From positions 1 through 64,000 of the forward strand of contig JANBVI010000047.1 of assembly GCA_024239075.1 (NCBI GenBank): a stretch of 64,000 nt of DNA, written 5' to 3'. Position 1 is the first letter of the stretch. Each line of letters opens with the position of its first letter. The notes beneath the pieces are model-generated. The model saw only the letters and a program-made list of their open reading frames with translations. It was not told the DNA's origin and made no database searches. A program made the position numbers and the translations under genes. Of this stretch, positions 27,793-38,433 are shown in pieces. Origin of the DNA: Fischerella sp. CENA71. Lineage in GTDB: Bacteria; Cyanobacteriota; Cyanobacteriia; Cyanobacteriales; Nostocaceae.

Positions 27793-28221
27793 ATGGCTGA
27801 CTTCATTCTCATCACTGGCGATAAAGCCATGTTTAACCCCACCTTCGGACAAGCTATTGTCACCGTGCGTCCAGGAGACTTAATTGGCACAGGCAAAGAT
27901 AAAATTAACCAAAAACTAGTCTGCGTTGATGGTGATGAGAAAAAAGTCATCGTCCCTGGTTGCACCTATATCACCTCCCAATATAGTATCCCTGGAGTGG
28001 GAATGCTCTCAATTGAATCCCTGGCTGGCAACCAAAAAGCCAAAAAGACCAAATCTGGTGGTAAGCCAGTACTACTCAAAGGTGCATCCTTCAAAGCCAA
28101 ATTTCAAGTCATGGTTCCTGCACAACAACCCTCTGCACCCAGTCCCATTCCTGATGCTACCCCCCAGTATTCCGGTACTGGTACATTTATTTCTACGAAT
28201 ATCAAAGTCAAAGGAACATGA
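27793..28221 (+). CDS. Small PAAR-like eCIS protein
   Basis: 142 aa. Beta-rich and Gly-rich, with GDKAMFNPTFGQAIVTVRPG, DGDEKKVIVPGCTYITSQYS and a Pro-rich linker. The order and glycine spacing suggest a PAAR-like cap or a beta-prism. I do not recognise a named family with certainty. It overlaps the next gene by 4 nt (ATGA). Confidence 0.6.
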   Translation: MADFILITGDKAMFNPTFGQAIVTVRPGDLIGTGKDKINQKLVCVDGDEKKVIVPGCTYITSQYSIPGVGMLSIESLAGNQKAKKTKSGGKPVLLKGASFKAKFQVMVPAQQPSAPSPIPDATPQYSGTGTFISTNIKVKGT

Positions 28222-31990: not shown

Positions 31991-32058
31991 CTCAGATTGT
32001 CAGGGCATGAGATTATTGGAACAGAAAACCGAGTTAAGCTTAAAAGTCTTATCGCCTC

Positions 32059-32178
32059 AGGCCTTTCAATAAAATGTGCCGCCCTCGCGTTCCCACGTGG
32101 TGGGAACGCTCACCAGTCCTTGGGTGAACCCAAAATATATTTGATAGGGCGGCACATTTTATTTTCACCGAGATCCCT
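32059..32178 (+). repeat. Folded ~120-bp element, copy E1
   Basis: Outer stem P1 is 18 bp and perfect: 32068-32085 pairs with 32146-32163 (AATAAAATGTGCCGCCCT). Inside are hairpin P2 (GCGTTCCCAC / GTGGGAACGC) and hairpin P3 (TTGGGT-ga-ACCCAA), then the conserved CCAAAATATATTTGATA. Ends: AGGCCTTTC on the left, GAGATCCCT on the right. Three other copies (E2-E4) lie within 6 kb. Their P1 and P2 sequences differ but still pair. Confidence 0.85.
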
Positions 32179-32386
32179 CAGAAGGTAACCCACCCCTTAA
32201 AAGAGTGGAATTGAAACAAGAGGTTTTTATACCTTGCTATTGCGCTATCTTGGTATAATTATCGCTTTAAACCGAAAACTAGGCTTTAGACTCAAAACTA
32301 AAGTCTTGATTGGCACGCTTAAGCTTCTGGTTTCTGCCCTCGATTCTCTTGCCTTTCTTTAGTAAATAACTTAAAAAAAATTTTTT

Positions 32387-32406
32387 CTCTATCTAACGAG
32401 ATAGAG
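32387..32406. terminator. Hairpin CTCTATCT-aacg-AGATAGAG
   Basis: A perfect 8-bp stem with a 4-nt loop, preceded on the plus strand by A8 and T6 runs. It would terminate leftward transcription, for example from the deaminase fragment. Confidence 0.6.
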
Positions 32407-32439
32407 TTTGCGACTTTTTGCATAAGTTTATTCAATGAA

Positions 32440-32595
32440 TCACTTTTCCCTTACCAGATGCGAGATGACATTGTAAAGTGGGATCAGGTGTGGTTCTGTA
32501 AGTTGGACTTGAATCACATCTGCTTGGAGTCCCACCCTAATTGCACCGATTTTATCTGCTAAGTTAAGTGCTTCTGCGCTGCCGAGTGTCGCCAT
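32440..32595 (-). pseudogene. TrzA/MTA-SAH deaminase-like amidohydrolase, C-terminal fragment
   Basis: 51 codons read MATLGSAEALNLADKIGAIR, then VGLQADVIQV and PHLIPLYNVISHLV. The phrases ATLG-A-AL-L-DKIG and G-QAD-I-V followed by PLYN-(V/I)SHLV are typical of the C-terminal end of amidohydrolases acting on methylthioadenosine or triazines. The metal-binding core is absent. It merges with the PAS fragment upstream, so this is a fused relic. Confidence 0.65.
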
Positions 32596-32885
32596 TCTCC
32601 TCGATAAACAAATTCATCATCAGTGCGGCGATATTGCTCAACCAACTGCTGGAAGTCAAGAATATCCTCAGGTGGGCGAATATCGAGAAGAGTCATAGAT
32701 AAAAATTCTGATTCAGAATACCCATAGTAAGCGATCGCTGCTTGATTAACTGCCAAAAAGGCCAGGGTTTGTGGATCAAAAATCCACATATTGTTGCGCC
32801 TTTTGCAAAGATTGCTGCGCTTGCTTTTGAATAGTTTTTCCATATAGTTTAATACGTTGACCAACTTGCTGCTCGTCTGGGTCAC
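32559..32885 (-). pseudogene. PAS-domain (sensor kinase) fragment
   Basis: The central part reads NNMWIFDPQTLAFLAVNQAA, IAYYGYSESEFLSMTLLDIR and PPEDI, the hallmark of PAS domains in cyanobacterial sensor kinases. Upstream on the same strand, in another frame, is a Gln-rich helix (KTIQKQAQQSLQKAQ) of the kind found before PAS domains. No kinase domain is present. The frame breaks and the switch into the deaminase fragment show that this is debris. Confidence 0.6.
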
Positions 32886-32917
32886 TGCGTCTCCATATCA
32901 CCGTCATGCCCAGGTGC

Positions 32918-32998
32918 GATCGCGCCTCCAGTCGTCGCCACGCGTCATAAGCTTCCGCCGCGGATTGTTTTGTGATAGACACAGAAGAAATTAAGTTT
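32918..32998 (+). pseudogene. Telomere-resolvase-like gene, 3-prime remnant
   Basis: The plus strand encodes DRASSRRHA, a broken patch, then ADCFVID and EEIKF. This lines up with codons ~371-396 of the intact resolvase (DRASSRRHAAEAYDADCF, then VTDIDEIKV). Twenty bases in the middle (32942-32961) match the intact gene only as the reverse complement; they cover the codon for the presumed catalytic tyrosine. Folded element E4 begins ~35 bp further on. A second copy of the resolvase gene therefore decayed here. Confidence 0.75.
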
Positions 32999-33032
32999 AT
33001 TTGGAGATCCCTAAGCGTCCGCCTCAGACCGA

Positions 33033-33158
33033 AGGGATCTGCAAATAATAAAATGCCCTTAAGTCGAGGCGCGCCTGAAGAGCGAAAGCGCCTAAATTTT
33101 TGGGCGGATGCCAAAATATATTGAATACGGCGCTTGCTTTTATTACGAGTAAGTGCCG
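33033..33158 (+). repeat. Folded element, copy E4 (degenerate)
   Basis: Left end AGGGATCTGCAAATAATAAA, right end ACGAGTAAGTGCC. P1 is imperfect (AATAAAATGCCC against GGCGCTTGCTTTTATT). P2 (GGCG...CGCC types, 33069-33092) and the conserved CCAAAATATATTGAATACGG are kept. An extra inverted copy of the end sequence, TTGGAGATCCCT, lies at 33001-33012. It stands directly after the resolvase remnant. Confidence 0.75.
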
Positions 33159-33344
33159 AAACCAATTGGCGACTTCACCTGGATGATACTGGTGGGGTCT
33201 ATTTATGGTAAAATCGTTACAGGATAAAAATTTTAGCCTTATTAAAAAAATACCAAAATCTCTATTTGCACCTGGGGAATGTGGGCTAGAAAAGTTAAAG
33301 AGCAAGATTAACAAAAAAGGGGCTTGATTGCCCCATATCTGCAA

Positions 33345-33503
33345 ATGGTAGAAATTATCGCCCTATTATGCCTAGCAAAAAAATACGGAATCATTGACCC
33401 AAGGGGAGAAAAAGCTACATCCAGAGATAGATGGTCTAACAAAAGGGGCAATCAAGCCCCTTTCGCAGAAATAGTGTACTTTACTACTGGTAATCAACAT
33501 TAG
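33345..33503 (+). CDS. Possible 52-aa small protein between inverted GC hairpins
   Basis: ATG to TAG with MVEIIALLCLAKKYGIIDPR at the start; unknown family. The hairpin GGGGC-TTGATT-GCCCC (33319-33334) precedes it. GGGGC-AATCAA-GCCCC (33445-33460) lies within the frame. The two hairpins are exact reverse complements of each other. No ribosome site is evident, so the frame may be incidental. Confidence 0.25.
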   Translation: MVEIIALLCLAKKYGIIDPRGEKATSRDRWSNKRGNQAPFAEIVYFTTGNQH

Positions 33504-33670
33504 ACGACATTTCTAAACTTCAGTCTGATTTGACCCAAAAGTAGATTCTTTGTATTGAGATTGATATTGATGCTGCAAGTTACATTTAACATATGGTACT
33601 TAAAGAAAAATCCACCTATTGTTTCAGGTGGATTATTTGTTTGACTTAGAAGTCAACAGCTTATTAAGTA

Positions 33671-34747
33671 GTTAGACAAAATTAATTACATAATTTTTCC
33701 CAAATTCTCTCTTGATTTTTTCAATAGATTCAACAAAAGTATTCCAGCTAGAATAAGCATCTATTTCAATCCACTGATATTTGATAAAGCGCCACAAAAT
33801 CTCAATCCAATTTAATTCTGGGGAATAAGATGGCAATTCAAAAATAGTAATACCACGCTCTTCCCATTCTTCAATTTTATCAAGAATAAGATTGCTGGTA
33901 TGAATAGAAGCTCTATCTGCAACAATAACTGTTGGTCTATTGACTACAGAGAAAAAACTATCGATACAATGGACAACAACATCCGAATTAATACTTTGAT
34001 GCGAAATATAAGTTTCAAGTTTATTTTTTCTGCTCAAAAACCCTAAAACATTTAAGCGACGACTGCGACTACTTTTAATTTTTAAATATTCTCCGATATC
34101 CTGCCATCCATAAGGCACTGAAGGTATTAAACAAAATCCCGTTTCATCTAAGTAATATAAATCTATTTTGCCTTCATCCTCCAAGCGCTTAAACTCTTCT
34201 AATTGTGCCTCTTTCTCTTTGTATTCCAAGGGGTCTGGCTGACCACCAACATCTCGACGCATACGGTGCCAACTCATAGAAAGCATTTTAATTATTCTTT
34301 TTATTGTTTTAGTACTTATCTCAATTCCCCATTCTGATTTAACTTTTTGCACGACCTTTTTTAATTGTCTTGGTTCTTCTTTAGTCCACTGTATAATTTT
34401 TGATATTTGCTCATTATTAAAAGTTGGCTTAGAACCTCTTCCTGGTTTATTATAAAGCCCCACTACTCCCTCTGATTCCCAGCGATTAAACCAGTTGTAA
34501 AGTGTCTTATAACTTACTTGAAAAATCTTCATTAATTCTTCTTTTTTTACTCCTTGCGAAGCTAATATAAGGCAATGCGCTCTTTGACGTACCTGATAAT
34601 GTTGGCTTTGGCGATAAATTCGCTCCAGTAATTTAGCTGAGAGGGGATTTATTTCACGGATGAATATCATCTTCAATAGGAATTAATACACAACTTATTT
34701 ATCCTGATATATTATACTTATTATTTGTGTAATTAATTCTGTCCAGT
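33671..34747 (-). mobile_element. IS630-family element 2 (intact)
   Basis: 1077 bp flanked by TA at 33669-33670 and 34748-34749. The ends are inverted repeats: left GTTAGACAAAATTAATTACA, right on the minus strand ACTGGACAGAATTAATTACA. The flanking sequences rejoin into a block that matches the uninterrupted region downstream of the resolvase (36225-36330), so the insertion site is clear. Confidence 0.85.
33672..34676 (-). CDS. IS630-family transposase
   Basis: 334 aa, uninterrupted. The N-terminal helix-turn-helix is visible in LMKIFQVSYKTLYNWFNRWE, followed by GRGSKP. The DDE catalytic residues lie in YLDETGFC, VIVADRASIHTS and a block ending LNWIEILW. The stop codon lies inside the left terminal repeat. 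Probably active or recently active. It cut-and-pastes at TA sites. Confidence 0.92.
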   Translation of the reverse strand: MKMIFIREINPLSAKLLERIYRQSQHYQVRQRAHCLILASQGVKKEELMKIFQVSYKTLYNWFNRWESEGVVGLYNKPGRGSKPTFNNEQISKIIQWTKEEPRQLKKVVQKVKSEWGIEISTKTIKRIIKMLSMSWHRMRRDVGGQPDPLEYKEKEAQLEEFKRLEDEGKIDLYYLDETGFCLIPSVPYGWQDIGEYLKIKSSRSRRLNVLGFLSRKNKLETYISHQSINSDVVVHCIDSFFSVVNRPTVIVADRASIHTSNLILDKIEEWEERGITIFELPSYSPELNWIEILWRFIKYQWIEIDAYSSWNTFVESIEKIKREFGKNYVINFV

Positions 34748-34820
34748 TACTTAAGAGTTTAATAAGCTATCATCAAAATCTATAACATTCAGTTACCTGA
34801 AAACATTGTTAACTAAATTA

Positions 34821-34985
34821 CCATCACCTGGATAAATACTGATGAGTATACAATCCTGCCATCAGTATTTTTTTGTCATTACTGCTGTGTAGATAGGTTT
34901 CTATACAAAGTACAGAGATAACGAAGACAATAAGGAGAGGTTTAACGCCTCCCCTTTGTTTTTTGAACTCCAGTGCGATCGCGCA
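34821..34985. repeat. ~165-bp leader block before the resolvase, copy 1
   Basis: Matches 37597-37762. It includes a hairpin AAATACTGATG / CATCAGTATTT followed by T runs (~34835-34873), and a second hairpin GGAGAGG-tttaacg-CCTCCCC (34934-34954) followed by TTTGTTTTTT. Both look like terminators or attenuators placed directly before the resolvase start. The second hairpin has its loop inverted relative to the other copy. Confidence 0.85.
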
Positions 34986-36171
34986 AACCCCAATTGAAAC
35001 CACCACACAAACCGAGTTTGAGTCTGAAGTTGAAGTTGAATCTGAAGAAACTGAATATCCCGACTTTGAAGCAGAAGTAAGCGAGGTTGCTAAAAAATAT
35101 TACGAGGGCATTTTTGACCCTGAGTCCAAGAAGTGGGGATTTATTGGCTTAAGAGAATATGTCACGCGGTTAACGGTTCAGCAAAAACCAGTATTGCCCG
35201 AATTCTTCACTATGGTTTCTGCTTTTCGTCCTGAGTTAGAGCGTAGAATCAAAGACCGCACTGGAGAAAGTGAGGTGAAGTTTAATACTTTATCCAACTG
35301 GCGATCGCAAATTCTTAAGCGAATCGAAAAAATGGTTGACCGCGACAACGACAGTTACCCCGAAAACCTATTGAGTCAAACATTTAAATTATTTTACGAT
35401 TCAATACAAGCCAGTTTTGCCGACGTCCAACGTCAAAAGGCGGAAAGTTCTAATAAAGGTCTCAACCGTCGTCAAAACAACGCTATCGACATTAAAGTAG
35501 TTAACTTGGTTCAATGGGCCAAACATCGCTTAACCAACTTGCCAGAAGTACCATCGCTTTGGCATCAAGTCGCAGTTGCCCTAATGATCCTTACTGGTCG
35601 CAGGCAGTCAGAGATAATGTCTAGTGCCAAATTCTCATCTGTGGGTTCTGATTGTTATGTTGAGTTTAGTGGTCAGTTAAAGCGGCACGATGGAGAAACA
35701 GTAGGGGCTTATGAAATTCCTGTGCTAGCTAATAGTGCTGAAGCAGTAATTGCTGGCTTGAAGTGGTTAGAAGACAATAACAAGCGTGTTATCCCCTCTG
35801 ATGAAACTTACCAGTCACAGCAAGTAGCCGCCAAGAAGTCTCACGATAGATTTAGCCGTTACTTGTCAGAATCAGCCAAAGACGCTTGCAACAAATATAT
35901 TGTCTTGGGTGAAGGCGCTGACTGGGAATTACCTGATGAGTCGGGGAAAAAGAAAGACCGCCGCAAATGTCACCTATTTCGCCAGATATATGGTCAAGTG
36001 GTCTATCCCGTTTATTTTGAGAAGTCAGGCAGAAAGTTAAACCAAGTTTTGACCGAAGTAATGGGACACAGCGATCGCGCCTCTAGTCGTCGCCATGCGG
36101 CTGAAGCTTATGATGCTGACTGTTTTGTAACCGATATTGACGAAATTAAGGTTATTTGCGGGAAAACTTAG
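34963..36171 (+). CDS. Telomere resolvase (protelomerase)-like tyrosine recombinase
   Basis: 402 aa from TTG 34963; the frame is open from 34897 without ATG or GTG, so the start is uncertain. Blocks shared with TelK/TelA-type enzymes: LTGRRQSEIMSSAKF (R213/R214), VEFSGQLKRH (K240), HLFRQIYGQVVYPVYF (R340), EVMGHS (H369), AAEAYDADCF (Y383). All expected catalytic residues are present. Such enzymes cut palindromic sites and rejoin them as hairpin telomeres of linear replicons. A terminator-like hairpin overlaps the ribosome-site region (AAGGAGAGG at 34932). Relics of a second copy and of its flanks lie on both sides. Whether a target telomere exists here is unknown. Confidence 0.75.
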   Translation: MNSSAIAQTPIETTTQTEFESEVEVESEETEYPDFEAEVSEVAKKYYEGIFDPESKKWGFIGLREYVTRLTVQQKPVLPEFFTMVSAFRPELERRIKDRTGESEVKFNTLSNWRSQILKRIEKMVDRDNDSYPENLLSQTFKLFYDSIQASFADVQRQKAESSNKGLNRRQNNAIDIKVVNLVQWAKHRLTNLPEVPSLWHQVAVALMILTGRRQSEIMSSAKFSSVGSDCYVEFSGQLKRHDGETVGAYEIPVLANSAEAVIAGLKWLEDNNKRVIPSDETYQSQQVAAKKSHDRFSRYLSESAKDACNKYIVLGEGADWELPDESGKKKDRRKCHLFRQIYGQVVYPVYFEKSGRKLNQVLTEVMGHSDRASSRRHAAEAYDADCFVTDIDEIKVICGKT

Positions 36172-36194
36172 CGCGATTCTAGCAATTTGCTACA

Positions 36195-36313
36195 GTTAGC
36201 ATATGATATCTGTTAGCATATGATATCTAAAGAAAATCCACCTGAAACAACAAGTGGATTACTCACTTGACTTAGAATATGACAGCTTGTTAAATCGCTT
36301 GATAGGCTGTCAT
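36195..36313. repeat. Tandem 17-mer and two hairpins after the resolvase
   Basis: GTTAGCATATGATATCT is repeated exactly twice (36195-36228). A hairpin AATCCACCT-gaaacaac-AAGTGGATT follows (36235-36260). Then comes a 35-bp near-palindrome with outer arms ATGACAGC / GCTGTCAT (36279-36313), whose inner mismatches are mostly G-T type. The same layout, split by IS630 element 2, is found at 33585-33668 plus 34748-34790. Confidence 0.8.
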
Positions 36314-36503
36314 TAAAGATATATAACATTGACGGATCAATCTTGTGGTAAAAATTGTTGCTTTAGTTTAAAAACTTAAAACAAACTTCTGACAAATTTT
36401 ACATAAGTGTGAGGTTGGTGCGATCGCCCTTCGTTAGTGAGGGGTTTATTGTTGGTGGGTAGTGTAAATGTAGCTGGATTGTGTTGTAGGGCATTATCGT
36501 GTG

Positions 36504-36701
36504 TGGTGTGGTTGGTAAGTGCAATATAACCAGATAAAACGCTTACTTTACCCTTATTTTTGGTTTATAGACTTATGAGTGTAAGAAAAACTGCGAAATC
36601 ACAAACTTAACCCTGATAATCATCCTGTATGCCTCTCCTTGTGAGGGGCTTTTTGTTGCTTCTCCGAGGGTTCGCCATTGGGACGCGGTTGTCTTTTTGG
36701 T
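36504..36701. repeat. ~198-bp direct repeat, right copy
   Basis: Near-identical to 30844-31041 at a constant offset of 5660 bp. No gene within. It is followed by further degenerate copies of a TGAGGGGTTT-type motif (~36816 and ~36980). Confidence 0.85.
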
Positions 36702-37113
36702 TGGCATCGCCTGACATTAACGTCAAAAAGTTTTGCCCCATTTGAAATGGGAGAAATTGCCCCCACGCCCCCGCCGTCCCCTCTCCCCTTCTACCCCTCT
36801 TATGCCCCTCGTTGGTGAGGAGTTTATTGTTGGTTGGTGCGATCGCGCTTGCTGTCGCCTTGGAGCATATGCAACATAGGCAGAGAAAAGGATTAGACTG
36901 TCCTTATTTTTGATCTATAAGCTTGTCATAGACTCCTAATTTGCTCCCTCTTCCCATCGCTAGCCCCTCCGCTTTGCCGTGCGAGGGGTTTGCTATTGAC
37001 GCGACCAATAACCAAATAACCAGTAGTGTACGGTTAGTGCGTTCACGAAGTGTGCCGGATGGCATATTGCCTGCCATCCCGAATATCGACGCACCAGCAA
37101 CTAGCAGTTACCC

Positions 37114-37444
37114 TGTCCGCAGTTTTAGGCCTTTCCAATTAATAAAATATCGGTGCCCTCGCGTTCCCACGAATGTGGGAACGCTCACCAATTCTTGGGT
37201 TGAGCCAAAATATATTTGATAGGGCACCGATATTTTATTTTTTGGAGATCCCTTAAAGAGGAGAAGCCAAAGGGGAAAAGGGAATAAACCTGTCCGCAGT
37301 TTTTTATAGATATATATATATAGGAAAACTGCGGACATACCTAGAAAAAAGGGGTGTTTTTGTCTAAAGATATACTTAAAACTAGCAATTAGGCACGGTG
37401 TCCGCAGTTTTGAGTTAACCAATAGTGTGCAAAAACTGCGGACA
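37114..37444. repeat. Five copies of TGTCCGCAGTTTT, two inverted pairs
   Basis: Direct copies at 37114-37126, 37291-37303 and 37399-37411; inverted copies at 37325-37337 and 37432-37444. Pair one encloses 21 nt made of alternating A and T (TATAGATATATATATATA); pair two encloses 20 nt. No other copies were noticed elsewhere in the window. The arrangement could be a replication iteron, a protein-binding array or a relic of hairpin telomere arms. Confidence 0.85.
37127..37253 (+). repeat. Folded element, copy E2
   Basis: P1 is 19 bp, perfect: 37141-37159 pairs with 37221-37239 (AATAAAATATCGGTGCCCT). P2 is GCGTTCCCAC-gaat-GTGGGAACGC; the P3 loop is TTGG...CCAA; the conserved CCAAAATATATTTGATAGGG follows. 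Ends are AGGCCTTTCC and GGAGATCCCT. It follows the first TGTCCGCAGTTTT motif directly. Confidence 0.85.
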
Positions 37445-37596
37445 AAAAACGGGTAAATGTTTAGCGTAAGTCTACAGTCAACTAGTGTCGAGTTCCATAT
37501 TATCTGACTTCGATCCCGAATTAACTGACCGCTTGTGGGTCAATCATGTGATCGCGTGCTGATAAAAATCTTATTTTGCAAATTTGAGTTATTCTG

Positions 37597-37762
37597 ACCA
37601 TCACCTGGATAAATACTGATGAGTATACAATCCTGCCATCAGTATTTTTTTGTCATTACTGCTGTGTAGATAGGTTTCTATACAAAGTACAGAGATAACG
37701 AAGACAACAAGGGGAGGCGTTAAACCTCCCCTTTGTTTTTTGAACTCCAGTGCGATCGCGCA
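37597..37762. repeat. ~165-bp leader block, copy 2, without a resolvase gene
   Basis: Repeats 34821-34985 including the two hairpins and the first codons of the resolvase frame, then diverges at GCGCAGAAGG. The second hairpin is GGGGAGG-cgttaaa-CCTCCCC (37711-37731). Its loop is the reverse complement of copy 1. A truncated third resolvase module. Confidence 0.85.
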
Positions 37763-37855
37763 GAAGGGAAAATGAGTGCAAAATATACACCGTCTCTTTG
37801 CACCCATAGCCCAGCATCTATCATGTTGGGCTATTAAAATATCAAAAACAAATAG

Positions 37856-37903
37856 AACTAGTTGTAGACATAATAGAACCAGTCTTGTATAATAGAACTA
37901 GTT
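37856..37903 (+). promoter_or_regulatory. Promoter flanked by two AACTAGTT palindromes
   Basis: TAGACA (37865-37870), 17 bp, TATAAT (37888-37893) make a near-consensus promoter. The palindrome AACTAGTT lies at 37856-37863 and 37896-37903, exactly 40 bp apart, so both could bind one repressor. A related GAACCAG sits between them. A strong ribosome site AAGGAGGTGAGG follows. Confidence 0.7.
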
Positions 37904-37917
37904 AAGGAGGTGAGGAG

Positions 37918-38130
37918 ATGAGCAAGGCACTCTTAGAAAAAATCAAGGAATTATTCGAGGCAACCAAGGATTTACACAGCCTTGAGGAAATTAAACCCCA
38001 CTGCTCTAGCTTCAACGCATGGCTACAACAAACCAACTACAGCGAGAAATCGCTAGGCACTTTATTAAGTCGCTGCGGTTTGTACAAGCTTTTTAAATCA
38101 GTCCCCTTAAACTTGAATCTATCCCACTAA
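37918..38130 (+). CDS. Small 70-aa protein with a strong ribosome site
   Basis: MSKALLEKIKELFEATKDLH, then AWLQQTNYSEKSLGTLLSRC. Helical, basic towards the C-terminus, no known family. The promoter with paired operators suggests tight control, perhaps autoregulation; a small plasmid-type regulator is possible. Element E3 follows 24 bp after the stop. Confidence 0.6.
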   Translation: MSKALLEKIKELFEATKDLHSLEEIKPHCSSFNAWLQQTNYSEKSLGTLLSRCGLYKLFKSVPLNLNLSH

Positions 38131-38153
38131 TCGATGCTTCCAGAGTTTTCTTT

Positions 38154-38277
38154 AGGGATCTCCAAATAATAAAATGCCCAGCCTTCGCTTTCGCCTACAC
38201 GGCGAAAGCGCGCTCTACTTTGGGCTTGGCCAAAATATATTTAATACGGCTGGGCATTTTATTACTTGGAAGTGCCT
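38154..38277 (+). repeat. Folded element, copy E3
   Basis: P1 is 16 bp, perfect: AATAAAATGCCCAGCC (38068-type position 38168-38183) with GGCTGGGCATTTTATT (38248-38263). P2 is GCTTTCGCC-tacac-GGCGAAAGC (38187-38209). The conserved CCAAAATATATTTAATACGG is retained. The ends are AGGGATCTCC (left) and CTTGGAAGTGCCT (right), the opposite order to E1 and E2 although the core points the same way. Confidence 0.85.
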
Positions 38278-38433
38278 TACCGACAGTAACGTAAGGCATT
38301 AGAGTCTCCTTTTTTTAGTTGGTTTGTTGTTTCAAGCTTCCGGCTCAGATAAAGAAGGCTTCATACCGTCAACATCAGAGCGATAGGTCTCAAACTCAAA
38401 CCCAATTGGTATAGTTCCAAGCTTGGTGAAGAG

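Follow-up and report, generated by a model that had tools for sequence, protein, structure and literature searches.

A stretch of 64,000 nucleotides from Fischerella sp. CENA71 (contig JANBVI010000047.1, positions 1 to 64,000 of the forward strand), here called the window, carries four copies of a folded repeat designated E; the window contig measures 71.7 kb and the genome 7.47 Mb. E is very probably a non-autonomous DNA transposon, that is, a miniature inverted-repeat transposable element (MITE), with ends of the ISAzo13 type and a stem-loop interior whose blocks have been shuffled. The four copies, E1 to E4, share one orientation, and their bounds were read as GG...CC between 3-bp direct repeats:

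32060..32177, + strand: E1, probable MITE copy of 118 bp, between TCA repeats at 32057-32059 and 32178-32180 (sequence, own-genome search, perfect outer stem)
32129..32145, + strand: unpaired constant core of E1 (CCCAAAATATATTTGAT), with counterparts near 33111, 37205 and 38230 (repeat family, alignment A4)
33034..33157, + strand: E4, probable hybrid MITE copy with mismatched outer-stem arms, between GAA repeats at 33031-33033 and 33158-33160 (sequence, arm table, cmsearch 61.9 bits)
37128..37252, + strand: E2, probable MITE copy with the ATCGGTGCCC stem, between TTA repeats at 37125-37127 and 37253-37255 (sequence, covariance-model search, arm table)
38155..38276, + strand: E3, probable MITE copy with the GCCCAGCC stem, between TTA repeats at 38152-38154 and 38277-38279 (sequence, covariance-model search, arm table)

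An earlier reading made from the letters of the DNA (the sequence-only reading) had placed four folded copies of about 120 bp at these positions, with a fixed unpaired core and with differing outer stems that still pair perfectly in three of them. All of this was confirmed. Folded as RNA and compared with dinucleotide shuffles, the copies gave z values of -7.45 (E1), -10.28 (E2), -9.28 (E3) and -4.18 (E4), the last for a fold different from that of E1-E3; as DNA, where E1 and E4 were run, the values were -8.49 and only -1.37, respectively. The outer stem is fully paired in E1 (GTGCCGCCCT), E2 (ATCGGTGCCCT) and E3 (GCCCAGCC), its two arms lying about 85 nt apart, and it is broken in E4, where the left arm GCCCTTAAG stands opposite the right arm CGGCGCTTGC, revealing a hybrid in the arm table. 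The unpaired CCAAAATATATT is constant in the window copies, and the left tip of E1 is devoid of 5 nt present in the others.

Further copies were collected with a covariance model built from 20 copies. At 61.9 bits or above, 49 distinct places were found in the stretches of the own genome searched, and matches occurred in 21 of 60 genomes: 29-56 in each of five genomes of the same genus, weaker ones in two others (38 in G010, 19 in G022), and 1-7 in each of the rest. Exact matches to one core pattern (51 stretches) came from Fischerella, Westiellopsis and Pelatocladus, with a few in Anabaena azotica, Nostoc flagelliforme, Nostoc indistinguendum and Amazonocrinis. E-like copies are also present on plasmid records of Fischerella, Nostoc and Calothrix, with 15-17 places on a 312-kb plasmid of Fischerella sp. 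NIES-4106. The length of E ranges from about 118 to 135 bp.

For the quantitative tests, 178 places were reduced to 165 by removal of 13 duplicates. Leaving out 75 by the main-family filter or by length gave 90, from which 22 redundant places were removed to give 68, and the exclusion of five truncated or interrupted copies left the 63 rows used in the block tests. Alignment A4 comprises another 63 rows, with seven of the 68 out (those five, L111 and L054) and two copies from other genera in. Stem pairs were counted in 105 two-arm copies (60 of the 165 did not have both arms or were too short), and 3-bp repeats were scored in 136 testable copies (29 of the 165 had no flanks or no G start).

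E copies begin with GG and finish with CC, and their flanks form TTA, TAA, CAA, TCA, AAA, GAA and other 3-bp repeats, TTA or TAA being the commonest. Such direct repeats were found in 93 of the 136 copies, compared with a mean of 40.6 when the right flanks were redealt (standard deviation 3.9, maximum 54, 200 shuffles). The excess is real, though the individual repeats are not all proven. The check for empty sites proposed in the sequence-only reading was run as well: for 11 copies, the joined flanks matched an empty site with one repeat in other loci at 83-100% identity, the best match being gap-free in 10 of them, and three sister genomes lack the copy at the place where it stands in L084 (L084:7708). 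Such empty sites indicate that E inserted as a transposon.

A single-strand-DNA recombination site for a tyrosine recombinase, comparable to the attC sites of integrons, would share with E the folded form, the variable arms and the constant unpaired core, as well as the presence of several copies on the same contigs. Integron attC sites carry the boxes RYYYAAC/GTTRRRY. We regard this explanation as most improbable for E, since 3-bp repeats and empty sites suit a DDE transposon and the orientations are mixed within clusters.

In 1.7 Mb of DNA, a search was made for inverted repeats that end in GG, are flanked by identical 3-bp sequences and are separated by 600-3000 bp. Five pairs were obtained, three of which join the ends of different MITE copies. 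One of the other two is a 1595-bp element with ends resembling those of E and with an ISAzo13-family transposase in two frames (NF033519, 2.8e-20 and 9.7e-36). This insertion sequence (IS) is present at three loci of one sister genome, flanked by the repeats CTA, TAA and TTA, and each of its tips agrees with an E tip at 18 of 20 positions; this score was reached by six of 6000 background GG 20-mers, all of them matching at 20/20 and probably being E tips themselves. A second ISAzo13 copy, in another sister genome (L307, G004), has TAA on both sides, GGGACTTG tips and E-tip scores of 16 and 15, which were equalled by 10 and 22 of the 6000 background 20-mers, respectively. Given the GG...CC ends, the 3-bp repeats, the empty sites and the ISAzo13-like tips, E is best read as an ISAzo13-type MITE.

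In the copy at L224:121-1715, the ISAzo13 transposase occupies two frames, the break lying near eight consecutive A; the recurrence of the split transposase at three loci of one genome suggests programmed frameshifting. Two other candidate partners were rejected. The ends around PF13359/PF01609 transposases of the IS5 type differ from those of E (AGACTTGTCCGAAA, GAGGTTGTTTGAAAAG; own genome, 39 loci, with 4 of 34 PF01609 matches left out), and the IS630 element beside the copies (33672-34676) has different terminal repeats (inverted repeat I3).

Compensatory change in the stems, a further claim of the sequence-only reading, held in the larger set. The covariation score of 63 non-redundant copies, drawn from several genera, was 0.187, compared with 0.073 in shuffles (standard deviation 0.006; reached in 0 of 500), and slid controls did not exceed 0.065. 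Change on both sides was seen at 16 of 28 pairs versus 12.0 in shuffles (63 rows, 0 of 500), and both this measure and the pairing level surpassed every one of the 500 shuffles and every slid control; the weakest of the five measures, further pair types, gave 34 versus 30.3 and was reached by 32 of 500 shuffles.

A structured RNA, regulatory or ribozyme-like, could in principle be the selected unit, with MITE ends that merely spread it, and the strong fold, the unpaired core nearly constant across genera (alignment A4) and the significant covariation would be in line with this. The mismatches speak another language. Among 1152 outer-stem (P1) pairs of the 72 near-perfect copies, one G-T and two A-C were counted, and P2 (68 of the 105 copies with the hairpin found) contained 19 G-T and 17 A-C; with A-C as frequent as G-T, selection at the RNA level is not indicated, there being no G-U preference on the strand read. 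Fold strength was about equal on both strands of E1 and E3, where tested, and the outer stem is broken in one third of the copies. No match to Rfam 15 was obtained for the four window copies (three matches at E-values up to 5, best 0.93, none of which overlapped a copy or came near its cut-off), nor did any sister copy come near a gathering score, rivX giving an E-value of 0.0026 and 20.9 bits versus a cut-off of 100. An RNA as the selected unit is therefore considered unlikely. The proposal that E is a structured RNA or a recombination site for single-stranded DNA, and not an ordinary MITE, was not upheld, in view of the empty sites, the missing G-U preference and the retention of 3-bp repeats by copies with broken stems (25 of 33, versus 54 of 69 paired copies). 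The fold seems not to be needed for insertion. That no known family had been recognised still applies as far as Rfam is concerned, but not to the ends, which are of the kind found on an ISAzo13-family IS of the same genus; a match to IS ends, named in the sequence-only reading as an outcome that would refute it, was in this sense obtained. Covariation in a repeat family, however clean, is no sufficient proof of an RNA gene, since a MITE with recombining blocks can produce it too.

Because the shuffles ignore relatedness, a block-linkage test was made. Of 1326 pairs of two-state columns, 461 showed all four combinations, and among the 247 pairs no more than 15 columns apart, 48 did so; E copies are mosaics of short blocks. 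Among nine blocks, the highest linkage was that between the left and right outer arms (Cramer V 0.74; permuted maximum 0.35), followed by the left side of P2 with the loop (0.60) and the right arm with its tip (0.57), and the arm pair ranked top in 995 of 1000 subsamples with nine blocks and in 997 with eight. Pairing is nearly all-or-none: in the 105 two-arm copies, all 16 outer-stem pairs were Watson-Crick in 68, 15 in four and 7-13 in 33. The 68 perfect copies carry 13 different left-arm 10-mers, some being mutual shifts, and of the 33 broken ones, 16 are clear hybrids, both of whose arms also occur in perfect copies, while in 15 this applies to one arm. The stems differ mostly by recurring blocks and not by gradual, pair-by-pair drift.

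These data bear on whether E is a plain MITE of unconstrained fold, in which the arm linkage reflects shared ancestry of a few founder subfamilies. The low singleton rate in every block, the equal retention of 3-bp repeats by broken-stem copies and the narrow lead of the arm pair within one subclade (see below) are compatible with it, and long stem loops are common in bacterial MITEs according to passages of PMC2229807. Ancestry alone would, however, favour neighbouring blocks, so the linkage of the distant arm pair above adjacent blocks in the whole set, despite reshuffling, counts against this explanation, as do the 13 different perfect arm 10-mers. We consider it possible but clearly the lesser candidate. 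Pairing matters or is restored between subfamilies; within subfamilies, this is less certain.

For the ISAzo13-type MITE, the following course is proposed. An ISAzo13 transposase would cut and paste E in trans, its source being represented by a relic in the own genome and by autonomous-looking copies at three loci of a sister species. Recombination shuffles the stem-loop parts between copies, and arms would be swapped as blocks to yield hybrids. Complementarity could be regained by one arm templating the other in the hairpin, or hybrids could be lost over time. The former process, quasi-palindrome correction, would at one stroke turn an arm into the precise complement of its partner. The arm-arm linkage amid shuffled blocks poses a testable question, namely how hairpin arms stay complementary.

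Several points weigh against this interpretation. No 3-bp repeat was found in 43 of the 136 copies, and the chance level (40.6 of 136) is high owing to the lenient bounds and the preference for TTA/TAA. The mobility of E is deduced from traces in the sequence, and its tips comprise 62 distinct 20-mers, to which the IS tips are near but not identical. The own genome contains two fragmentary ISAzo13 matches only, both at one place and one with a stop. When the test was confined to the 43 rows of the ACGGC subclade, linkage of the two arms reached 0.57 compared with 0.55 for the loop and the right side of P2, and was top in 415 versus 370 of 1000 subsamples; this narrow lead implies that the arm linkage is partly a difference between subfamilies. 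Singleton rates were low in every block (0-1.4%), so the copies are too young for many intermediates; stems and loops were not usefully different in this respect, which gives no ground for inferring purifying selection on the pairs. The one-pair stem steps GTGCCGCCC/GTCCCGCCC/GTCCAGCCC could alternatively be ordinary compensatory mutation, and arm templating is itself inferred.

Between the E copies, the window encodes a telomere resolvase of the ResT/TelK type (34963-36171; PF16684, 9.9e-24). The region upstream of this gene occurs a second time at 37597-37762 (96%), and 32903-33001 holds a fragment of its C-terminal part. Mobilisation or use of E by this enzyme would agree with the position of the gene and with the presence of E, or of a weaker match, no more than about 2.5 kb from a resolvase gene on 10 of 20 contigs inspected (L084, L224-L229, L237, L240 and the window), an uncontrolled count. 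E copies cluster anyway, however, and the proximity count lacks a control gene; the positions of E vary between orthologous resolvase loci, the 3-bp repeats suit a DDE enzyme, and six of seven genomes of other genera, all with E-model matches (some weak), gave no PF16684 match at an E-value of 0.001. Telomere resolvases cut a central palindrome in their substrate; E is an interrupted inverted repeat whose arms enclose about 60 nt. A role of the resolvase is rated as highly improbable. The 14262-bp contig L227 (G001:C42) is a perfect palindrome (14262/14262) with central tandem repeats and truncated telomere-resolvase fragments; either a linear replicon ends here in a hairpin telomere, or the palindrome is an artefact of assembly. 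The window further encodes the spike tip protein of a contractile injection system (27793-28221; PF19267, 2.5e-55).

The weaker E-model matches included S, a hairpin element of 134 nt that is nearly identical in all its copies. The own genome has five sites (on C30, C53, C57, C58 and, in part, C62) at which S interrupts the Asp codon of LLD-RGFYHF, presumably the catalytic residue, in IS4-family transposases:

L201:1367-1503 and L205:1367-1503: S copies
L202, L210 (minus strand): S copies at the same site
L287: partial S copy

Each of the four complete copies has matched GAC codons at its two junctions, the C62 copy showing the right junction only, and an AAGGAG ends 8 nt before the second GAC. 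Uninterrupted sites read GAT-AGAGG at eight loci of relatives, several of these loci being near-identical, and GAC-TTAGG and GAT-TTGGG in two more distant ones. Comparison of the four complete copies gave 0-3 differences in the 137 positions of the insert, as against synonymous divergence (Ks) of 0.46-0.99 and a nonsynonymous-to-synonymous ratio (Ka/Ks) of 0.07-0.16 in the transposase halves. Divergence returns within 10-25 bp of S, with no co-conversion of flanks, and the interrupted genes do not form one clade (small tree, supports 0.74-1.0). Near-identical full-length S was found only at those own-genome sites when candidates were scored in 40 genomes, the next being 70-83% identical, alongside short end matches. 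The simplest reading is repeated entry of S at one site; a single entry with extreme conservation is possible.

Homology between the cores of S and E, suggested by weak covariance-model matches (36-37 bits) and a similar layout, is unproven, and long perfect hairpins may generally score alike. It is conceivable, though improbable, that the folded core (outer stem, P2, P3 and an AT-rich unpaired strand) is a functional module common to several kinds of short mobile DNA without open reading frames and with differing ends; S would then be a site-specific, intron-like element that entered four or more diverged IS4 genes at this Asp codon. It might be excised, at the level of DNA or RNA, or skipped by ribosomes, in view of the matched GAC codons and the AAGGAG, and E would be its transposon-ended relative. 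If confirmed, a hairpin element that sits at the same codon in several diverged transposases would represent a novel means of disabling or parasitising IS elements. At L275:1413-1524 (G003:C1), an element with S-type ends again follows GAC in a transposase gene (flank reading), which we take to be IS982-like. Another look-alike hairpin element, at L085:7851-7981, lies in frame and without stops inside a gene presumed to encode a chemotaxis receptor.

No earlier description of E was found in the literature searched, a weak negative given the thin coverage of subscription papers. Nezha, reportedly described by Zhou in 2008, is said to be a small MITE of filamentous cyanobacteria with nested inverted repeats and is likened to E by description only. 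Quasi-palindrome correction is known from mutation hot spots and not as a path of MITE-family evolution. Like E, the ISAzo13 IS (NF033519, PF07592) has GGGACTTCCAAnnAATAAA-type terminal repeats and is flanked by 3-bp repeats (CTA, TAA, TTA), and its copy in G003 also has long hairpins just inside both ends; unlike this IS, E is devoid of a transposase and has its own stem-loop core. By description, E also resembles the group 1 MITE of Anabaena sp. 90, which is small, has three sets of inverted repeats and resides in a filamentous cyanobacterium, according to passages of PMC3542288. Bacterial MITEs with long stem loops, as treated in part of PMC2229807, comprise Correia/NEMIS, ERIC, RUP and others; like E, these measure 100-200 bp and show terminal repeats, target duplication and pairing of the 5' and 3' ends, but that part does not describe stems differing by whole blocks or mosaic copies. 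Compared with these descriptions, E represents a MITE family that is new, though of a known kind, and its interior is unusual in that the stems differ blockwise yet mostly stay paired and the copies are mosaics.

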